Positions 53,169 to 64,000 of a stretch of 64,000 bases of DNA are shown in pieces. The stretch lies in assembly GCF_002930645.1 (NCBI RefSeq), contig NZ_PSNW01000008.1, positions 1-64,000 of the forward strand. Reading direction: 5' to 3'. The notes below the pieces were generated by a model. It searched no databases. It was given only the letters and a program-made list of their open reading frames with translations, and was not told the DNA's origin. The DNA is from Solimonas fluminis. GTDB lineage: Bacteria; Pseudomonadota; Gammaproteobacteria; Nevskiales; Nevskiaceae. Numbering within the stretch: position 1 is the stretch's first letter; every line of letters starts with the position of its first letter. A program made the position numbers and the translations under genes.

Positions 53169-53244
53169 GTCCCCATCGTCTAGAGGCCTAGGACACCACC
53201 CTTTCACGGTGATTACCGGGGTTCGAATCCCCGTGGGGACGCCA
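53169..53244 (+). tRNA. tRNA-Glu (anticodon TTC), integration target
   Basis: The 76-base cloverleaf has acceptor GTCCCCA/TGGGGAC, anticodon loop CTTTCAC with TTC, T arm CGGGGTTCGAATCCCCG and encoded CCA end GCCA. An integrase gene starts 156 bases downstream, so its 3' half is the likely attachment site and may belong to the element side of the junction. Confidence 0.95.
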
Positions 53245-53399: not shown

Positions 53400-54662
53400 A
53401 TGCGACGGATTAGGGAGTTAACAGACCGGGAGTGCCGCGAAGCGCGCCCCCGGGAGAAGCTGTACAAGATGTTCGACGGGCGCGGCCTCTACCTAGAGGT
53501 GGGGCCGTCCGGGCGCAAGGCCTGGTGGCTCAAGTTCCTGGTGGGGAAGAAAGACTCCAGAGTTTCCCTCGGCGAATACCCCTCAACCAGCTTGGCGAGG
53601 GCTCGCATACTTCGCGAAGAACATCGCCGGCGCTTACGCGAAGAGGGTGTAACCCCCAGCCAGCACAAGCGGCGCGAGGCGCTGGCGCGCCAGGTTGCAG
53701 CCGCCAACACCTTCGAAGCTGTAGCCAGGGAGTGGATTGAGGTCCGCACCGTCGACTGGGCGCCCAAGACGGCTTCGACGGTTACAACCCGCCTGGAGCA
53801 GAACCTGTTCGGTGACCTTGGCGCGCGGCCGATCGCTCAAATTTCGGTGGCCGAGCTACGCGCCGCACTCCTGAAAGTTGAGGCTCGCGGCACCTTGGTG
53901 CTGGTGAAAAAGCTGAGGCAATACGCCGATGCTGTGTTCGAGTTCGGCAGGGGGACGGATCGCTGCGTCGACAACCCGGCCCAGCGACTAAAACGGACGC
54001 TGAAAACCCCTCAGGAGCGCCACCACCCCGCCATATTGGACCCCATCAGGCTCGGCGAACTTCTGCGCGACATCGACGGTTACCGCGGCACAGCGGTGGT
54101 TCGCTCCGCTTTCCGCTTGGCGCCGCTCGTTTTCGTTCGGCCCGGGGAATTACGCCAAGCCGAGTGGAAGCACATTGATTTACAGGAAGCCGTTTGGCGA
54201 ATCCCGCCTGGCGAAATGAAGAAAAGGAATGGCTACGTCATTCCGCTGTCGCTCCAAGCGCTGGCAATTCTGCGCGAAATTCAGCCATTTTCGGGGCGCG
54301 GGCGTTATGTCTTCCCATCGATTCGGGGCCAGGATCGCCCTATGTCCGAAAACACCATCAACGCGGCGCTGCGGTCGTTGGGGTATACCAAGGACGAGAT
54401 GACCGGGCACGGGTTTAGAACCATCGCCTGCACCTTTCTCAACGAGGAGGGCACTTGGAATCGGGACGCCATCGAGCGGCAACTTTCTCATACGGAAAGG
54501 GACACTGTTCGGGACGCCTATAACCGCGCGGAATACATCAACGAGCGCCGGCGCATGATGCAAGCTTGGGCAGACTGCGTAGATCAACTCGCTCAACGAA
54601 GGCCTAAGCCGGACGCCGCGAATGAGGTGCCGCCGGTCCAGGAGACTGCGGATGCTGCCTGA
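53400..54662 (+). CDS. Tyrosine-type integrase (P4-like)
   Basis: The 420-residue protein has an N-terminal arm-binding domain of the DUF4102 type (LYLEVGPSGRKAWWLKF), a SAM-like core-binding domain (about 100-190) and a catalytic domain. The catalytic domain shows Arg in RPGELRQAEW, HGFRT, LSHTERD and the nucleophilic tyrosine in YNRAEYI. It integrates DNA at tRNA genes. The ATG at 53400 lies within a GGGGTCAGC-rich stretch (TAGGGGTCAGCGG and TAGGGGTCAGC, two direct repeats upstream that could be arm sites). The next gene overlaps its end by 11 bases. Confidence 0.94.
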   Translation: MRRIRELTDRECREARPREKLYKMFDGRGLYLEVGPSGRKAWWLKFLVGKKDSRVSLGEYPSTSLARARILREEHRRRLREEGVTPSQHKRREALARQVAAANTFEAVAREWIEVRTVDWAPKTASTVTTRLEQNLFGDLGARPIAQISVAELRAALLKVEARGTLVLVKKLRQYADAVFEFGRGTDRCVDNPAQRLKRTLKTPQERHHPAILDPIRLGELLRDIDGYRGTAVVRSAFRLAPLVFVRPGELRQAEWKHIDLQEAVWRIPPGEMKKRNGYVIPLSLQALAILREIQPFSGRGRYVFPSIRGQDRPMSENTINAALRSLGYTKDEMTGHGFRTIACTFLNEEGTWNRDAIERQLSHTERDTVRDAYNRAEYINERRRMMQAWADCVDQLAQRRPKPDAANEVPPVQETADAA

Positions 54663-57057: not shown

Positions 57058-58377
57058 TTACCCTTGGCACGCCGCGCCTCCGGAAACCTTGTTCAATTTG
57101 ACCTTGTACGTTAGCGGTGAATTGGGTGGGATGCGGGGAAGCGCGCCCCGTGACCCGAAGGCCAGTGCGGCGGGGATGCGGGCTTCATAGCTGCCACCTT
57201 CGCGCATTTTCTGGAGGGCTGAGACCCAGCCGCGCAATTGGTGTCCGGCTAGGCGTGAATTCGCGGCATCGACGGTTTCAACAACTGACCCATCATCGAG
57301 CACCAGGGTGTAGGAAACATTGACGGTGCTGGTTGGCGTTGGCGCGCACCCTGTGCCTGGTTCCAGCGTCGTCACCTGGACTGCATCTTCGTCTCGGGGT
57401 GCCGCAGGTGATCCGGCGATAACGGGTGCGGCCTGGGGCTGCGCCGGTGCCGCCGCGCCGCCCTGCTCAGCGTAGGACTCGCAGTAGGTTGGGAGGGAGT
57501 TCGCAGCGGCCAAGTCGCTGAACTCCGCTCGCGTCTTGAGGGTGCATAGACGCTTTCCACGGAATGTGGCGAATTCGATCTTTCTGGGCATCTTGAAGAC
57601 GGCGCCAGTGACTAGTTGCGCCTCAGTTTGGGTGATTTTGTACATGGCTGCGCCCTGGGGGGCGGCCTCGACCTTGCCACCTACGGCACGCCCCAGTTGG
57701 ACAACTACGTCATCGTAGACGCAGCACGGATTCACTATCGCTTTATCGACAAGGTTGAAGGTCAGGTCCTTGATGTTCGCCGACCAAGTCGCACTTGAGG
57801 TGTTCTTGAGGGAGACATAAACCCCATTTCTCGGGTGCGCCGCGACGGCGATGATGGTGCCGCCGAACTGGCCGGCGAAGAATTGTTCTTCGGGCTGTTC
57901 CCCGAGCATTTTCTCTACGTTGGCGACCGACAGATATCCCCCCTCTTTGAAGCACTCCTCCGCCACGTCAAAGGGAGCCCCGTCGGCTGTCTTCGCACCA
58001 AAAGTGGCGAGTACGGCGGCCTCCATGTCCCGGGTGGTTAGTTTCGGCCACCGGGCCTTGTTGCCGTCCATGTCCTTCCAGAGTGCATCCAGCACATGGC
58101 CGGGCATGTAGCCTTGCTTGCGGCCGCGCGCGGCCTCCTGAGCAACGGCAATCATCTGCACGCATCGCTGCCGGTTATTTTCTTCATCCTGGGCCTTGAT
58201 TGTCGCGGCGCTGGGGGGCGATGCCGCGGCAAGCAGCGGGGGCATTGGAGCGCTCCCTGCGGCAGATTGAGGGGCTGGCGGGGGTGGCCGGGGCGAGCCC
58301 TCTATCAGGGTCAGCGCAAGCATGCCTATCCCAACAATCACCGCGCCCGCCGCGACGAATGTCCCTGTCTTCTTCAT
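57058..58377 (-). CDS. Exported protein with C-terminal FKBP-type peptidyl-prolyl isomerase domain
   Basis: The 439-residue protein has an N-terminal hydrophobic segment (about 7-25, anchor or signal), a Pro/Ala linker and an unrecognised middle domain with several cysteines (about 60-310). A C-terminal FKBP fold follows (about 345-432) with VSYTLVLDDGSVVE, GWVSALQKMREGG, IPAALAFGSRG and IPPNSPLTYKVKL. Aromatic active-site residues are partly replaced, so isomerase activity is uncertain. It is presumably periplasmic. It follows a small BamE-like gene on the same strand. FKBP proteins are unusual cargo for such elements. Confidence 0.75.
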   Translation of the reverse strand: MKKTGTFVAAGAVIVGIGMLALTLIEGSPRPPPPAPQSAAGSAPMPPLLAAASPPSAATIKAQDEENNRQRCVQMIAVAQEAARGRKQGYMPGHVLDALWKDMDGNKARWPKLTTRDMEAAVLATFGAKTADGAPFDVAEECFKEGGYLSVANVEKMLGEQPEEQFFAGQFGGTIIAVAAHPRNGVYVSLKNTSSATWSANIKDLTFNLVDKAIVNPCCVYDDVVVQLGRAVGGKVEAAPQGAAMYKITQTEAQLVTGAVFKMPRKIEFATFRGKRLCTLKTRAEFSDLAAANSLPTYCESYAEQGGAAAPAQPQAAPVIAGSPAAPRDEDAVQVTTLEPGTGCAPTPTSTVNVSYTLVLDDGSVVETVDAANSRLAGHQLRGWVSALQKMREGGSYEARIPAALAFGSRGALPRIPPNSPLTYKVKLNKVSGGAACQG

Positions 58378-58904: not shown

Positions 58905-59159
58905 ATGCAGAAGCGGCCCGACCTCATTGCTCTTGGACGAAAAATCCGCGCCGTCCGCGAGGACAAGGGGTTTTCCCAGGAAGGGTTTTCGGTTGAGGTC
59001 GGTCTTGACCGTGCCTACTACGGTGGGATTGAAAGGGGCGAGCGCAATGTTGCTGCGGTCAATCTCATGAAGATGGCACAGGCCCTTCAGGTGGAAGTTG
59101 GGGAGTTGTTCCCCGCGCTTGATGAGCTGGCCGCCCTTTCCAAGCGACGGACCAAGTAA
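58905..59159 (+). CDS. XRE-family transcriptional regulator
   Basis: The 84-residue protein is a single Cro/C1-type helix-turn-helix: LGRKIRAVREDKGFSQEGFS, VGLDRAYYGGIERGERNVAA, LMKMAQALQVEVGELF. It lacks a sensing domain. It may repress the divergent BamE-like/FKBP pair or its own gene. The ATG at 58905 has no strong ribosome site. Confidence 0.88.
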   Translation: MQKRPDLIALGRKIRAVREDKGFSQEGFSVEVGLDRAYYGGIERGERNVAAVNLMKMAQALQVEVGELFPALDELAALSKRRTK

Positions 59160-59375: not shown

Positions 59376-59400
59376 AATCTCACTTCATTCACGTGAGATT
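59376..59400. promoter_or_regulatory. Inverted repeat before the STAS-like gene
   Basis: AATCTCAC and GTGAGATT are perfect 8-bp arms separated by nine bases, ending 10 bases before the ATG at 59411. It could be an operator, possibly for the gene's own winged-helix product. Confidence 0.55.
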
Positions 59401-59410
59401 GGTTAGTGTC

Positions 59411-59989
59411 ATGAAGTTATCCATTCATCAACTGGTAGGCGGTAAGGAGGTCTTGGCGGGTGCAGGGCCGGGCGCCGCTCTGCTTGCGCAACTCGTGGCT
59501 GTACGTCCTGAAGTTGCGGGGCCAGTGGTGATGCACTTGGACTTCAGCGGCATCGATGTAGCTACGTCGAGCTACCTTAGAGAAAGCGTGCTTGCGTTTC
59601 GAGACTACTGCCGGATGGGGTCATCCGAGGTGTACCCCGTTTGCGCCAACCTCTCCAGCGATATCGAAGAGGAACTCAAGGTGCTTTTGGCCCAGCGCGG
59701 CGATGCCCTGGCTGCATGTGATTTAGGGCCGGAAGGGCTGGCGGAAAATGCGCGGGTTATCGGAGTCCTGGAAGAGAAGCAGAGAGAAGCGCTGCAACTG
59801 GTCATCAATGCTGGGGCTGCAGACGCCCCCACGCTTGCCCGCCAGCAGGGAGCGGACGTGAAAGTGGGTACCACGGCTTGGAATAACAGACTGACGGCAC
59901 TCGCTCGCAAGTCACTGCTGGTTTGCCGCCCGGCTGGGCGTTCAATGCAGTTCAGTCCTGTGCTGAGAGGTATGTCATATGGGCCTTGA
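59411..59989 (+). CDS. STAS-like protein with C-terminal winged helix
   Basis: The 192-residue protein has a STAS-like (DUF4325-type) domain at about 38-100, recognised by MHLDFSGIDVATSSYLRESV. A predicted winged helix spans about 120-185 (EKQREALQLVINAG, AWNNRLTALARKSLLV, GRSMQFSPVL). STAS domains pair with GHKL ATPases in anti-sigma/anti-anti-sigma switches, and a GHKL ATPase gene lies at 61460-62251. I chose ATG 59411; a GTG at 59393 would place the start inside the inverted repeat. It overlaps the next gene by 11 bases. Confidence 0.6.
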   Translation: MKLSIHQLVGGKEVLAGAGPGAALLAQLVAVRPEVAGPVVMHLDFSGIDVATSSYLRESVLAFRDYCRMGSSEVYPVCANLSSDIEEELKVLLAQRGDALAACDLGPEGLAENARVIGVLEEKQREALQLVINAGAADAPTLARQQGADVKVGTTAWNNRLTALARKSLLVCRPAGRSMQFSPVLRGMSYGP

Positions 59990-60329
59990 TTTCATTCGGA
60001 AGCGCGCGGGTAGTTTCAAGAAGGCCTGGCTGCGGGGAAGCGAGGAGCTCGCCAGGAACGACCTGCTCACGCGCCACCCGGAATGCCAGTCGCGCACGGT
60101 TGTCGCTGACCTGGGCGATGAATGTGGCGCCTCAGTAGGCCAGCGTGTTGTCCTGGAGGCCGCCGGCGGCAGGTTGCTGCTGTACCGCGGTCACGCGCGA
60201 ATCGGCGCAATCGCGCGGCCGCCAGCGGACTTGGCGTCGGCGATCGCGAGCAACGGCGGCGTAGCTCTCGGTGAAATCACCCAACTCAACCACTTCAGCG
60301 GGACGGCGGACGTATGCGTCTTAAGGTAG
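59979..60329 (+). CDS. Unknown 116-residue protein of the STAS operon
   Basis: The product has a basic, helical start (MGLDFIRKRAGSFKKAWLRG), two cysteines near 36 and 49, and a beta-rich centre (RVVLEAAGGRLLLYRGHARI). No family is recognised. It overlaps both neighbours (11 and 16 bases), indicating tight translational coupling with the STAS-like and cysteine-rich genes. Confidence 0.55.
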   Translation: MGLDFIRKRAGSFKKAWLRGSEELARNDLLTRHPECQSRTVVADLGDECGASVGQRVVLEAAGGRLLLYRGHARIGAIARPPADLASAIASNGGVALGEITQLNHFSGTADVCVLR

Positions 60330-61453
60330 TAAACCGGCAGCTTCCTGACTCCGAGCCGAGTTCGCCGCGGCGAGAGCGCCGCCTTTGGCATGTAGCGAAT
60401 GAGGGAATGATGCCGATGGGCTGCGGGGCCTGCCCGGATAGCTCTCTGTGTGGCGGCTTGCAGATCAACGACAAAATCTTCGATTGCGGAAGTTTCTGCC
60501 GGTGCCCTGATCCCGCTGCATGCGACACGGTATGTAGAGCTCGACCGGAGCACTATGTTGCGCGCCGTAGCGAGGTCTTTGGATTCGACTTGGCGAATGT
60601 GCCCCGCTGTGAGGCTGTAGCGTCCATCAAGGCCCCCAGCTACATCCCCATGCTCATGCATGGGTCTCGTAGATCAACCCCGCTTAAGCTGGATGCGGTG
60701 GCCGTTCCCCTTGCTGAACTGCTGGACAGGCGGAGCGGGGCGCACCGCTTCGGCAGCCGTGCGGAGCTATATGATCATTTCATGCTCGATGATCTTACCG
60801 CCGTGATTGCTTCGGGCACGGATGAGGACAAAAGCATCGAGCGCGTTTGGGGGCTGAAAGACCCTGCGGCTTTCGCGAAAACCCTCATGAATATGGGGGT
60901 ATCGGCTGTCACGTCACCCAACTTCAGCTTGTTCAACGATGTCCCGCGTTGGGACAACCTCTACAACATGAAGAGGATCGCTCTCTGCTGGCAGCAATTT
61001 CAAAGTGCCGGCTTGCATTCACTACTTCACGTGAACGCACGGACCGATCAGGATTGGAATCGCTGGATCGAATTCATCGAGGCGCGCCCAGAAATCTCTG
61101 GCGTGGCATTTGAATTCGGCACGGGTGCAGGGGCACAGTCTAGGGAAGGCTGGCACCGCGACCAGCTTTGCCGCCTGGCGCAGTCCATTTCCAGGCCATT
61201 AGAACTTTACGTGCGCGGCGGGCTTCAAGTGCTGGGCGAGCTTAGGACCGCGTTTGGTAACGCCAATATTAAGATGATCGACAGCCGCCCCTTCATGAAA
61301 GCAATGCACCGCCAGGCGGGGGAAATCGCGGCAAGCGGTAAGTTGGAGTGGACGCCGGCGCCAACGGCCTTCGGCCAGGAACTTGACGACCTGCTGGCGT
61401 TGAATATCTTCCAGTGCCGGCTTGACGTGCTCCAAGGCACGCGCAGGAAGTAA
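60314..61453 (+). CDS. Unknown cysteine-rich protein, third gene of the STAS operon
   Basis: The 379-residue protein has eight cysteines between residues 37 and 74 (CGACPDSSLC, then DCGSFCRCPDPAACDTVC), a spacing that could hold an Fe-S cluster or zinc. The rest alternates helices and strands like a barrel enzyme (VSAVTSPNFSLFNDVP, LHSLLHVNARTDQDWNRW, GVAFEFGTG, LELYVRGGLQVLG). No known family could be named. It starts 16 bases inside the previous gene and ends six bases before the convergent GHKL ATPase gene, with no terminator between them. Confidence 0.55.
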   Translation: MRLKVVNRQLPDSEPSSPRRERRLWHVANEGMMPMGCGACPDSSLCGGLQINDKIFDCGSFCRCPDPAACDTVCRARPEHYVARRSEVFGFDLANVPRCEAVASIKAPSYIPMLMHGSRRSTPLKLDAVAVPLAELLDRRSGAHRFGSRAELYDHFMLDDLTAVIASGTDEDKSIERVWGLKDPAAFAKTLMNMGVSAVTSPNFSLFNDVPRWDNLYNMKRIALCWQQFQSAGLHSLLHVNARTDQDWNRWIEFIEARPEISGVAFEFGTGAGAQSREGWHRDQLCRLAQSISRPLELYVRGGLQVLGELRTAFGNANIKMIDSRPFMKAMHRQAGEIAASGKLEWTPAPTAFGQELDDLLALNIFQCRLDVLQGTRRK

Positions 61454-61459
61454 GGCTCG

Positions 61460-62251
61460 TTACCCGGGGTTCCTGCAAGTTATCGAAGTGACGAATCCAG
61501 GCAGGTTCGCCCGCTGTTGTACCCTCGCCATGGCTAAGTCCGGGCTCTGCCCATCGATTACCAGGACGTGGTCCCCACTCCTGAAACGCAGCATGCCCAT
61601 CAAGTTGGCAAGGCCCACGAAGATGGGCCGGAATCCGCAGCCGCGTTGGGCGGAGCGCCCATATCGCGATACGCCGTCTTGGAGAGCAAACTGAAGTGCA
61701 TCTCCAGCATCCTTTAGGTCGGCGTAGTCGGGGCAGCTTTTAAGGCTATTTAAAATGCCAACGCCTGCATCGGCCACCACAAACTCGAACTCGTTGTTGC
61801 CTGCACGGTACCCTACGTAGCCGGTATCGACCGCTTGGCTGTGCAGATGAATGTTGTCTTCCAACTCGCCTATTGCACCTACCAGTTGCTGCGCCACCCT
61901 TTTGTGTATACCGGCCTTTTCTGCGGCTCGCTGTGCCCAAACAAGAAACTCAGTCCATTTTAGGTCGGCAGAGGGATCAGTGCGAGGCGTAACGAAGTAT
62001 GCCCCCACTTGGTCCGTGATCAATTTCCCCCGTGCATGCTTCTCAAAAAAAGGGGCTGCCGCTGTCCTCGCGGGGCACGGGGCAATGGAATCCAGGGTGG
62101 GTAAACTCGCTACGCCACCGGTCTTCATCAGCGCCAACTCCACTAGCGGCCCTAGTTCATTTGCCTCAAAGCGCATGCTACGAAGATCAACAGCCCGGCC
62201 CTTTGATAGGGCAAGTGCTAGATCATCAAGCAAGCTGAAATTTAGCAGCAT
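61460..62251 (-). CDS. GHKL-fold (histidine kinase-like) ATPase protein
   Basis: The 263-residue protein has Bergerat-fold ATP-binding motifs: N box ELEDNIHLHS (Glu129, Asn133), G1 VADAGVGILNSL (Asp161) and G2 SAQRGCGFRPIF. No phospho-acceptor histidine domain or receiver is seen. The N-terminal ~100 residues are unrecognised. It could be an RsbW/SpoIIAB-like kinase or a GHKL switch protein, with the convergent STAS-like protein as a possible partner. It starts 28 bases after the 474-residue gene on the same strand. Confidence 0.7.
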   Translation of the reverse strand: MLLNFSLLDDLALALSKGRAVDLRSMRFEANELGPLVELALMKTGGVASLPTLDSIAPCPARTAAAPFFEKHARGKLITDQVGAYFVTPRTDPSADLKWTEFLVWAQRAAEKAGIHKRVAQQLVGAIGELEDNIHLHSQAVDTGYVGYRAGNNEFEFVVADAGVGILNSLKSCPDYADLKDAGDALQFALQDGVSRYGRSAQRGCGFRPIFVGLANLMGMLRFRSGDHVLVIDGQSPDLAMARVQQRANLPGFVTSITCRNPG

Positions 62252-62278
62252 GCGGTGCGTTATCGAGAAGAGCGGCCT

Positions 62279-63703
62279 CTAGTCAAGGAGGCGCTTTTGC
62301 TCCTTGCTGCTGGAGCTCGTCTTCTTTTTGCTTGAACTGGAAGCGCTCTCTTCAGCAACCGCGCGCACTCGCTCTGCTATGTGCGGCCATAGCAGATTCG
62401 CCAATGTCGCCGCGAGTGCATTGTCCACCGGCGGAGAGGTGGATGCTTTCGTGGCGGGCTTTTGATCATGTTCCACGGTGCGGGTGTCGCCTGCATCAGC
62501 CAAGGCGATAGATATGTTCACCCCAGGATATAGGGCTACCGTTCCAATGCGCTGCTGCTTGAGCTTTAGATGAACCAAAGGGTCCCGAAGTCCAGGATCC
62601 ACCAGCACCACAGCTTCGTCTACAGCAATGTCTGCCGCTGGGGGTTCGTCTAACCGCAAAGTACGAGTTAATTCTCTCGCTACTAGCCTTCCTAGTCCGT
62701 CGAATCCGGAAGTCCATGTCACCTGTTCGCCTATTCCGCCGATGGTATAGGCCCAAGCAAGAATTTCCGGCCACCGCCTAGCCTCTCTTTCGGCCAAGCT
62801 AAGGCTAGGCGCACCACCTGCGGCTACCGTCGAGAGATAACCAGCCGCTAGTGCAAGCAACATTCTTTGCGAAAGATTTTCCTCGCCATCCAATTGTTTG
62901 AGCAGCTTGTCGTAAATTCGGAGACGTCTTTCCGCTGTCAACTGATGAAGTATCGCGATTTCGTCAGCTTCCGGAAGCATCCCCATCAACGGCTGTGCGA
63001 ATTCCAACGCCTCAAATTCGCGGTTATTCGATCGGCCTCGTGCCAGGCCTCTTAAAGCATCAATGGCGCGGAAGGTTTCCGGGGATCGTGGTGAGCTGGA
63101 TTCTTGAGATAACGCCATCAGCACCTGCCATATAGGAGCAAGTGCTGAAATGAGCCGCTGACTTGCCGGCTCACGAGGACGTAGCAGCCTGTTCGCGGCG
63201 TCAAACCGCCCCAGAACATCCTCAATCGAAACTCTTCCCCATAGCGCTGCGGTACGCGCTACGGCAAAAGTTCTTGTGCCCAAGCAAGCGGGCAATTTCA
63301 ATGTGCGCAGAGGACGCTCGCCCAGCAGCAGCGCCTCTGCAATTACCAAGCCAGACCAAGCAGCCTCGAATCCCCCAAGATCGGCTTCGCGAGACGTAGG
63401 GGTGGTTTTTTGGAACTGCTCAACGGTTAAGTAGTGGCACCAAGATGTAAGGGGAGATAGCTCATTGCGCGTTTGAGCAAAGCGCCCGAACAGCCTTCGC
63501 AAATCCTCTTGTCGTGCCACTACCGCAAGAGGTTGTGCAACTTCTCGATGAGAATTTTCTCGCCAAAGGACGCCAGTCCTACCCGCGTCGATCCGAATGT
63601 TGGCTTCTCTTTTTATCCATTGAGAGCCTGGAATGGCATGACCGATGGTGACGTCGTTCAGTTCGTCATCATCGACAACTCGAAAGAGATACGTGTAATT
63701 CAT
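62279..63703 (-). CDS. Unknown 474-residue protein between helicase and GHKL ATPase
   Basis: No family is recognised. The protein is mainly helical and has a low-complexity Ser/Lys tail (SASSSSKKKTSSSSKEQKR). The region about 360-420 has beta strands (AADIAVDEAVVLVDPGLRDP, IGTVALYPGVNISIALADAG). The ATG at 63703 is three bases after the helicase stop, so translation is coupled. An adaptor or effector role in the same system is inferred only from position. Confidence 0.6.
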   Translation of the reverse strand: MNYTYLFRVVDDDELNDVTIGHAIPGSQWIKREANIRIDAGRTGVLWRENSHREVAQPLAVVARQEDLRRLFGRFAQTRNELSPLTSWCHYLTVEQFQKTTPTSREADLGGFEAAWSGLVIAEALLLGERPLRTLKLPACLGTRTFAVARTAALWGRVSIEDVLGRFDAANRLLRPREPASQRLISALAPIWQVLMALSQESSSPRSPETFRAIDALRGLARGRSNNREFEALEFAQPLMGMLPEADEIAILHQLTAERRLRIYDKLLKQLDGEENLSQRMLLALAAGYLSTVAAGGAPSLSLAEREARRWPEILAWAYTIGGIGEQVTWTSGFDGLGRLVARELTRTLRLDEPPAADIAVDEAVVLVDPGLRDPLVHLKLKQQRIGTVALYPGVNISIALADAGDTRTVEHDQKPATKASTSPPVDNALAATLANLLWPHIAERVRAVAEESASSSSKKKTSSSSKEQKRLLD

Positions 63704-63706
63704 TGG

Positions 63707-64000
63707 CTACCAGTCCGGCTTCGTTTTCTTTGAGTAGGATCCAGCGATTTCCTGCGGCACAACGCTTGTGAAGCGAATATCCAAACTGGTCTTTGCTCGG
63801 GTCACGACAGTGTAGTAATGCTCAGGAGTGTGGTACCTCATGAGGTCATCTGCAAAGAGCCAATGAACCGCGCGAAATTCAAGCCCCTTGCACCCCTGGA
63901 CAGTCACAATGTTAATGGGGCGATCCGCATCGAACTCAGGACTGTAGTAGTCGTCGTCCTCATCGGGGTCCCATGCGCGGATGACTTTAGATTTTCCTTG
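63707..64000 (-). CDS. Superfamily 1 helicase (UvrD/PcrA-like), C-terminal end
   Basis: The last 97 residues of a gene that enters from the right edge are seen. They contain motif V (VTVQGCKGLEFRAVHW) and motif VI (YYTVVTRAKTSLDI) of UvrD-type DNA helicases, where the arginine contacts ATP. The upstream residues (PDEDDDYYSPEFDADRPI) are an acidic insert. The Walker A part is outside the window. It leads the reverse-strand operon with the 474-residue protein and GHKL ATPase. Confidence 0.75.
   Translation of the reverse strand, partial: QGKSKVIRAWDPDEDDDYYSPEFDADRPINIVTVQGCKGLEFRAVHWLFADDLMRYHTPEHYYTVVTRAKTSLDIRFTSVVPQEIAGSYSKKTKPDW

Follow-up and report, generated by a model that had tools for sequence, protein, structure and literature searches.

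A four-gene cassette related to CapK and CapS is exchanged between bacterial defence systems and adjoins a candidate defence operon in Solimonas fluminis

How bacteria silence costly or suicidal immune systems and yet activate them in time is an open question. Pairs formed by a STAS protein and a GHKL kinase, such as SpoIIAA/SpoIIAB and RsbV/RsbW, are well-known regulatory partners. CapKS, described in 2026 (PMC13373217, EMBO J; cited here from parts of its text), is one kinase/repressor answer to the need for immune quieting and timely switch-on. In that system the repressor is CapS, a STAS-winged-helix protein, and the kinase is CapK, a GHKL protein that responds to single-stranded DNA (ssDNA); on DNA damage, CapS is phosphorylated at Ser54 and lets go of DNA, so that the adjacent immune operon is derepressed. 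Here we describe a locus of Solimonas fluminis lying in the first 64,000 nucleotides of contig NZ_PSNW01000008.1 (the whole stretch analysed, henceforth the window), in which genes for a STAS-winged-helix protein, a protein of 116 amino acids (aa) and an eight-cysteine, DUF4417-like protein converge on a GHKL kinase-like gene. These four genes form a conserved cassette that is exchanged between defence systems, and a separate operon encoding a kinase, a helicase and a 474-aa protein lies beyond them.

The conserved unit consists of the STAS-winged-helix, 116-aa, DUF4417-like and GHKL genes. When plasmids were searched by tblastn for the cysteine-rich protein, 32 records were returned, 8 of which covered at least 80% of the query, and the gene order STAS, ~116 aa, DUF4417 was found in all 6 of those 8 that were examined. 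A pattern scan based on an eight-sequence alignment then retrieved 44 loci from one genome per species (84,980 genomes) and 1 locus from viral contigs, where the single DUF4417-like protein as query had found no relative; such scans overlook relatives without the pattern. After gene calling and a profile scan of the open reading frames (ORFs), the census comprised 53 loci including the window, with the DUF4417-like gene, as the search query, present in each by construction. The 116-aa gene accompanied it in all 53, the STAS gene in 52 (it was absent from L047) and the GHKL gene in 51, the two exceptions (L004 and L016) being a single contig that ends just past the DUF4417-like gene. All four genes were present in 50 of the 51 loci not cut at that point. 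One locus, L011 (Euzebya), harboured a distant DUF4417 gene with the other three cassette genes absent and was excluded. Before the counts given below, differing sets of loci were dropped: L011, L004 (the contig of L016), L042 (identical to L041 across the compared stretch), L050, L055 and loci that were cut or gene-deficient. In an independent check on 398 genomes of the phylum, 5 were matched by the DUF4417-like profile, and the STAS profile picked out the same 5 plus one weak partial match; the STAS gene was recovered in 19 of 20 cassette-bearing genomes, the miss being that of L047. The GHKL gene was convergent with the others in 27 of 47 loci, the window among them, co-directional and downstream in 18, and upstream in 2. 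In two plasmid records (L005 and L007, 9204-10103 in both) the public annotation has the GHKL gene on the wrong strand, giving a hypothetical protein read from its antisense. A further 23 records, of Streptomyces plasmids, contain distant DUF4417 proteins (22-25% identity).

A profile of 49 cassette STAS proteins matched PDB entries 9z71 and 9z72, which we take to be the CapS structures of the CapKS study, with E-values of 0.0033 and 0.0039 over positions 3-170 and 3-172 of 186. A plasmid search with CapS gave 43 records, and the five examined provided three CapK and two CapS proteins for comparison. With E-values calculated for these five sequences, the STAS profile matched the two CapS proteins at 2e-13 and 3e-8, and the GHKL profile matched the three CapK proteins at 3e-15 to 7e-13 over the kinase domain only, the matches beginning at profile positions 88, 125 and 130. 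The serine aligned with CapS Ser54, which is the second serine of the CapS DSSF motif, was invariant in 49 of 49 cassette STAS proteins. In the window it is Ser60 of the 198-aa ORF, or Ser54 if counted from ATG 59411, which is a likelier start than GTG 59393. Likewise, GHKL residues E129, N133, D161, G163 and G165 were invariant in 48 of 48 proteins, and the winged helix of the STAS protein carries very conserved residues. At the level of sequence, therefore, the STAS and GHKL proteins are homologous to CapS and, over the kinase domain, to CapK, which agrees with the first-pass annotation of the window, where the two had been read as regulatory partners.

The likeness to CapKS is extensive. 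The STAS-winged-helix protein is homologous over nearly its full length and keeps the phosphosite serine, the GHKL kinase domain has the same conserved residues, including the conserved asparagine, and both systems adjoin diverse immune operons and have a palindrome at the STAS promoter. Nevertheless, by the features that PMC13373217 itself gives, the cassette is no CapKS member, because gene order and operator differ: capK lies directly before capS, whereas the cassette GHKL gene mostly faces the STAS operon or follows it, and CapKS has TTAA half-sites at the capS and partner promoters, whereas the cassette operator is TCTCAC-N9-GTGAGA and is not enriched at partner promoters. Moreover, the cassette has two extra proteins, the HTH-STAS (HTH, helix-turn-helix) part of CapK was not found in its GHKL protein, and Kiwa, Gabija, Hachiman and pAgo are absent from the partner list in section 7 of that paper. 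By analogy, we expect the cassette to be a homologous CapKS variant that works similarly. VapKSC (section 13 of PMC13373217) resembles it in combining a STAS protein with a CapK-like kinase without HTH domain, but the cassette STAS protein has a winged helix, and no Pfam match to a VapC-type (PIN) gene was obtained among the scanned window, kinase and helicase proteins. SpoIIAA/SpoIIAB (treated in section 11 of the same paper) and RsbV/RsbW share the STAS target and GHKL kinase, while the cassette STAS protein carries its own DNA-binding domain and no sigma factor belongs to the set. According to PMC13373217, CapW/BrxR and CapH+CapP are likewise small, ssDNA-responsive regulators adjoining unrelated immune operons, but they differ in protein families and mechanism. 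PMC13373217 contains no mention of DUF4417, cysteine or Gabija, and the DUF4417 passages seen in PMC12704722 concern ParB fusions in phages. Apart from PMC13373217, no paper appears to deal with this cassette in the literature searched, which left out most subscription papers.

A perfect 8+8 palindrome with a 9-base spacer, absent from the first-pass annotation, lies ten bases upstream of the STAS ATG. A blind search for dyads in front of STAS retrieved TCAC-N9-GTGA in 23 of 49 loci, whereas none of ten shuffles gave more than 4. With up to 2 mismatches in 12 allowed, TCTCAC-N8/9-GTGAGA lies there in 28 of 48 loci; random positions within these loci would give 0.5. The right arm may overlap the ribosome-binding region, which could explain part of its conservation but not that of the left arm. 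The cassette's own promoter has this motif instead of a TTAA operator, no search having been aimed at TTAA. A dyad scan of 48 GHKL-side regions gave nothing above shuffles at word lengths 4 and 5, and at length 6 only two-locus words. The promoter before the partner operon of L021 and L029 contains zero-spaced half-sites, TCACGTGA, which call to mind the narrow and wide sites of CapS; they may be due to chance, given that 5 of 43 partner-side regions hold near matches with 2.0 expected.

Partners were assigned with PADLOC, either directly or through homology to a scanned protein. Of the 52 listed loci, 24 have a recognised defence gene or system on their GHKL side, eleven kinds being represented altogether (Table 1); in L028 and L056 other genes lie between cassette and Kiwa. 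DUF499-type genes in L006 (from annotation) and L055 (from homology) were left out of this count. As a control, 74 proteins from 19 distant 20-kilobase (kb) regions of cassette genomes were scanned (the longest of 75, of ~2000 aa, was omitted), and none matched PADLOC at 1e-20. The defence context proposed by the first-pass annotation is thus borne out, but the condition that it had set for refutation, that the two gene sets occur apart, tells against a single system: relatives of the helicase, 474-aa and kinase genes occur without the + set, and the + set, together with GHKL, adjoins eleven other kinds of defence gene. Further flank scans gave 52 PADLOC families for 60 more GHKL-side proteins and 107 for 84 STAS-side proteins, figures which are not counts of systems, as 25 families were shown for each side and a family comprises many models. 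These scans covered proteins of at least 90 aa within 5 kb, outside near-copy loci and, for the GHKL side, only where a locus had no partner assigned yet. No common mobility gene was found beside the cassette, the most widely shared neighbour clusters after the defence genes occurring in at most 7 loci. A 267-aa gene lies between cassette and Hachiman in L021 (12179-12982), with relatives in L029 and L031 and only weak PADLOC matches (5e-4); L028 has a 203-aa relative of it before Kiwa, like a remnant of a partner exchange.

Comparison of the DNA of 45 loci showed that the cassette has been exchanged between defence partners with sharp boundaries. In 162 pairs the loci were alike over at least half of the cassette. 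Where both loci had the same partner (14 pairs), similarity extended to about the end of Kiwa in 6 pairs and of Hachiman in 3, continued beyond the partner in 2 (L023/L025 and L036/L040) and stopped within the cassette in 3 (L028 against other Kiwa loci). Between loci with different named partners, by contrast, similarity ended at the GHKL gene or at most 373 base pairs (bp) past it in 74 of 74 pairs; medians and extremes were computed over all 74, and among the 60 pairs shown individually the largest values involve L028, the Kiwa locus that keeps the 267-aa gene relative. L046, with a HamB-like gene, was labelled Hachiman in this comparison. In one unnamed-partner pair (L014/L043) similarity reached 603 bp past GHKL. 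On the left, the edge typically lay 10-80 bp before the STAS start, or inside the cassette for more diverged pairs, the exceptions being L036/L040 (972 bp), L023/L029 (1.6 kb) and two unnamed-partner pairs (more than 300 bp). A quick tree of 47 cassettes required at least 4 label changes for Kiwa, at least 3 for Gabija and at least 2 for Hachiman, with L046 and L047 unlabelled and with deep joins left unsure by the long branches of L053, L054, L012 and the window.

The place that these systems occupy in other loci is taken in the window by the kinase-helicase-474 genes, and because of this position in the cassette's partner slot we predict them to be a candidate defence operon. They are an operon separate from the cassette: a kinase, a helicase and a third gene in the same order were found on plasmids of R. 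leguminosarum (L120) and Cupriavidus (L121), where the 15-kb stretches fetched contained none of the cassette genes. In a ten-sequence comparison with these plasmid operons, the kinase domain showed 33% identity (~1e-33) and the helicase 27% and 30% identity (1e-40 and 7e-42), while the third gene matched the 474-aa protein weakly (E 8e-6 in R. leguminosarum and 0.016). The R. leguminosarum operon (L120, 1641-9518) is divergent from an adjoining Hachiman pair (HamA, 7e-131). Searches found no relative of the 474-aa protein on plasmids, and none was found in the other 99 of 100 genomes; viral contigs held no kinase relative, and the C-terminal 165 aa of the kinase had none on plasmids or in the other 288 of 289 genomes. 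Neither the 474-aa protein nor the helicase or kinase of the window had a homologue at 1e-10 in the other cassette loci scanned. The first-pass annotation had found no named system that fitted the whole locus, and PADLOC gave the same result: the best match of the five complete window genes was at E 0.031, with no whole-system match, and the helicase and kinase matched family-level models only. Gabija was considered for the helicase and rejected, since there were only partial GajB matches (best model C3a187, 3.4e-19) and no GajA-type gene in the - operon.

Two proteins of the cassette are without counterpart in CapKS. The DUF4417-like protein of the window scored 26.8 bits against Pfam DUF4417 (PF14386), under the cut-off of 28.9, and 5 of 20 relatives matched that family at E 0.1. 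Its structure model (pLDDT 84.7, pTM 0.87) is a predicted TIM barrel, for which Foldseek returned tRNA-guanine transglycosylase (TGT, 1.3e-5) and, at rank 6, the DNA preQ0 insertase DpdA (2.9e-5). Most of the 50 best PDB matches were TGTs, with E-values of 1.3e-5 to 1.8e-4 and TM-scores of only 0.32-0.46, and other TIM barrels (4lsb, 4iqd, 1to3) ranked as well. TGT and DpdA are thus the nearest modelled folds, but the DUF4417-like protein differs from them in its N-terminal cysteine cluster, and no match to TGT was obtained profile to profile. Of the eight N-terminal cysteines, seven did not vary across 45 sequences and C62 hardly did, a conservation that suggests a metal or iron-sulphur site. 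The model of the 116-aa protein (pLDDT 78.7, pTM 0.60) found its best Foldseek match in four chains of 3k2y (probability 0.87-0.97, E 0.18-0.73), a structure which itself matches the HIRAN profile at 2e-14. HIRAN domains, such as that of HLTF, bind 3' ssDNA ends. Aligned to HIRAN with hhalign, the 116-aa profile gave a colinear match at E 0.0054 with a probability of only 6.7% (four other pairs, 0.26-0.76), but none of 44 members matched Pfam HIRAN (PF08797) at E 0.1 and the Foldseek E-value is weak. Modelling thus offers a lead, that the 116-aa protein might be a HIRAN-like sensor of DNA ends.

Taken together, the four-gene linkage, the homology to CapS and to the CapK kinase domain, the conserved phosphosite and kinase residues, the promoter palindrome and the exchange of partners make it fairly probable, in our judgement, that the window contains a portable CapK/CapS-related control cassette next to a separate candidate defence operon. 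The STAS-winged-helix protein would bind the palindrome and repress the cassette's own promoter. A danger signal, most likely products of DNA damage as for CapK, would activate the GHKL protein, which would phosphorylate the invariant STAS serine; the repressor dimer would then dissociate, the cassette would be derepressed and the adjacent system armed. The 116-aa and cysteine-rich proteins could be dedicated signal-input or coupling subunits replacing the HTH-STAS part of CapK. Several observations weigh against this explanation. No partner was identified in 28 of 52 loci, the window included, the contig of several of them being too short to show one. Defence genes abound on the STAS side as well, with matches to AbiE, reverse transcriptase/retron-type and SduA families, so clustering in islands explains part of the association. 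Unlike in CapKS, the operator is not enriched on the partner side: its wide form with up to 3 mismatches was found in 5 of 43 loci (4.5 expected) and its narrow form with up to 2 in 5 of 43 (2.0 expected), which tells against the CapKS scheme having simply been copied. In the profile comparison with three CapK proteins, the N-terminal part of GHKL showed no alignment to the HTH-STAS region, and the HIRAN and TGT assignments derive from fold alone. A bolder version is possible, though we hold it tentatively: the cassette may be a general plug-in arming device, in which a HIRAN-like reader of DNA ends and a TGT/DpdA-like nucleobase reader or modifier feed a CapK/CapS-type switch that is swapped among about ten antiviral kinds, in which case it would mark kinase-helicase-474 as antiviral.

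Other explanations account for parts of the same evidence. That the conserved palindrome stands at the promoter of the cassette itself, without enrichment at that of the partner, that the 116-aa and DUF4417-like genes always follow STAS and that defence genes lie on both flanks would all suit a self-contained defence or stress system, in which STAS and GHKL control only their own operon, the other two proteins are effectors acting on nucleic acid or nucleobases, and the neighbours are island co-passengers. We regard this as rather unlikely, as the cassette forms with Kiwa, or with Hachiman, a single block of shared DNA that stops where the partner ends, and the same kinds of partner have been joined repeatedly and independently. 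The lack of operator enrichment at partner promoters would equally fit a mechanism like that of VapKSC, for which PMC13373217 (section 13) provides a precedent in a STAS protein paired with a CapK-like kinase: the STAS protein would inactivate the partner or the DUF4417-like protein by binding it, phosphorylation by GHKL would free the target, and transcription of the partner would not be controlled. Such a mechanism is improbable in view of the very conserved residues of the winged helix, the palindrome at the cassette's own promoter and the absence of a PIN match, and hence of a VapC-like gene, among the Pfam-scanned window proteins; moreover, a single STAS family would need to bind many unrelated partners. 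Regulation of the mobile element, in its excision or transfer, instead of defence would be in keeping with the position of the window copy on a tRNA-Glu element and of several relatives on plasmids or beside recombinase genes, but we give it very little credence, because no common mobility gene adjoins the cassette and the similarity blocks join it to defence systems. Finally, the first-pass annotation had regarded the + and - sets as one six-gene defence system, for which their tight packing and 6-base convergent gap speak. Its genes proved real, but the - operon was incomplete, the kinase following beyond the window, and the grouping was different, GHKL belonging with the + set. The single system has next to no chance of being correct and was excluded, since the kinase, helicase and third gene occur in L120 and L121 without cassette genes, and the cassette occurs with other partners at loci where no 474-aa, helicase or kinase homologue was detected.

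The coordinates of the locus and the loci of each partner kind are collected in Table 1. Gene positions, strands, tight packing and the 6 bases separating the convergent sets (61454-61459) were as the first-pass annotation had given them, and each + gene (STAS, 116-aa, cysteine-rich) overlaps the next. The location in a tRNA-Glu element, also proposed there, was supported by the integrase beside the tRNA gene and by a 15-bp repeat of the tRNA 3' end (blastn-short E 0.004), from which the element would be ~13.2 kb long, the integrase lying at one end, opposite the cassette and partner genes.

Table 1 Features of the S. fluminis locus (window positions unless marked as contig) and defence partners of the cassette in other loci
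Feature	Position or loci	Strand	Remarks
Candidate STAS-winged-helix repressor (CapS-like)	59411..59989	+	192 aa from ATG 59411; ORF opens at GTG 59393 (198 aa)
116-aa protein, possible HIRAN-like small barrel	59979..60329	+	
Eight-cysteine DUF4417-like protein	60314..61453	+	TIM barrel (model), nearest folds TGT/DpdA
GHKL kinase-like protein	61460..62251	-	CapK-like over kinase domain; Pfam HATPase_c_2 E 0.0024
474-aa protein	62279..63703	-	partner operon gene 3
SF1 helicase, 3' part in window	63707..64000	-	whole gene contig 63707-64885
Hanks-type Ser/Thr kinase, beyond window	contig 64886-66250	-	- operon
Palindrome AATCTCAC-N9-GTGAGATT	59376..59400	.	predicted cassette operator
tRNA-Glu	53169-53244		
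tRNA-Glu 3' end, left copy of 15-bp repeat	53230..53244	+	right copy contig 66426-66440
Tyrosine integrase	53400..54662	+	Pfam Phage_integrase 1.7e-18
Kiwa partner	L005, L013, L020 (Ensifer sp. BR816), L028, L032, L056		
Hachiman partner	L021, L027, L029, L031		
HamB-like gene partner	L046		
Gabija partner	L007, L023, L025, L052		
pAgo partner	L036, L040		
SIR2-pAgo partner	L038		
SIR2-HerA partner	L034		
Mokosh partner	L009		
Type III restriction partner	L043		
BrxL/PglZ partner	L044		one gene intervening
Type IIG partner	L019		
AbiEii partner	L047		as second gene

Other genes of the element were also noted. A protein at 55351-55962 matches REP_ORF2-G2P (Pfam 6.2e-7, above cut-off) and may be a phage- or plasmid-like replication initiator carried on the element. 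The cargo includes a 439-aa protein (57058-58377) with a C-terminal FKBP domain (7.4e-13) and no evident role in the cassette. A small XRE-type HTH protein (58905-59159), on the STAS side of the cassette, may be a regulator of the element. Past the kinase, the contig continues with genes that, by eye, read as a MarR-type regulator and an efflux pump.

The locus thus adds to the known answers to immune quieting a homologous but distinct four-gene version of CapKS, in which two conserved parts lack an explanation and whose partners include Kiwa, Gabija, Hachiman and pAgo. DUF4417 gains a testable context. Since the boundaries of exchange are sharp, the partner slot can be used as a search tool for new systems, and unnamed genes found in that slot, such as kinase-helicase-474, are candidate new systems.

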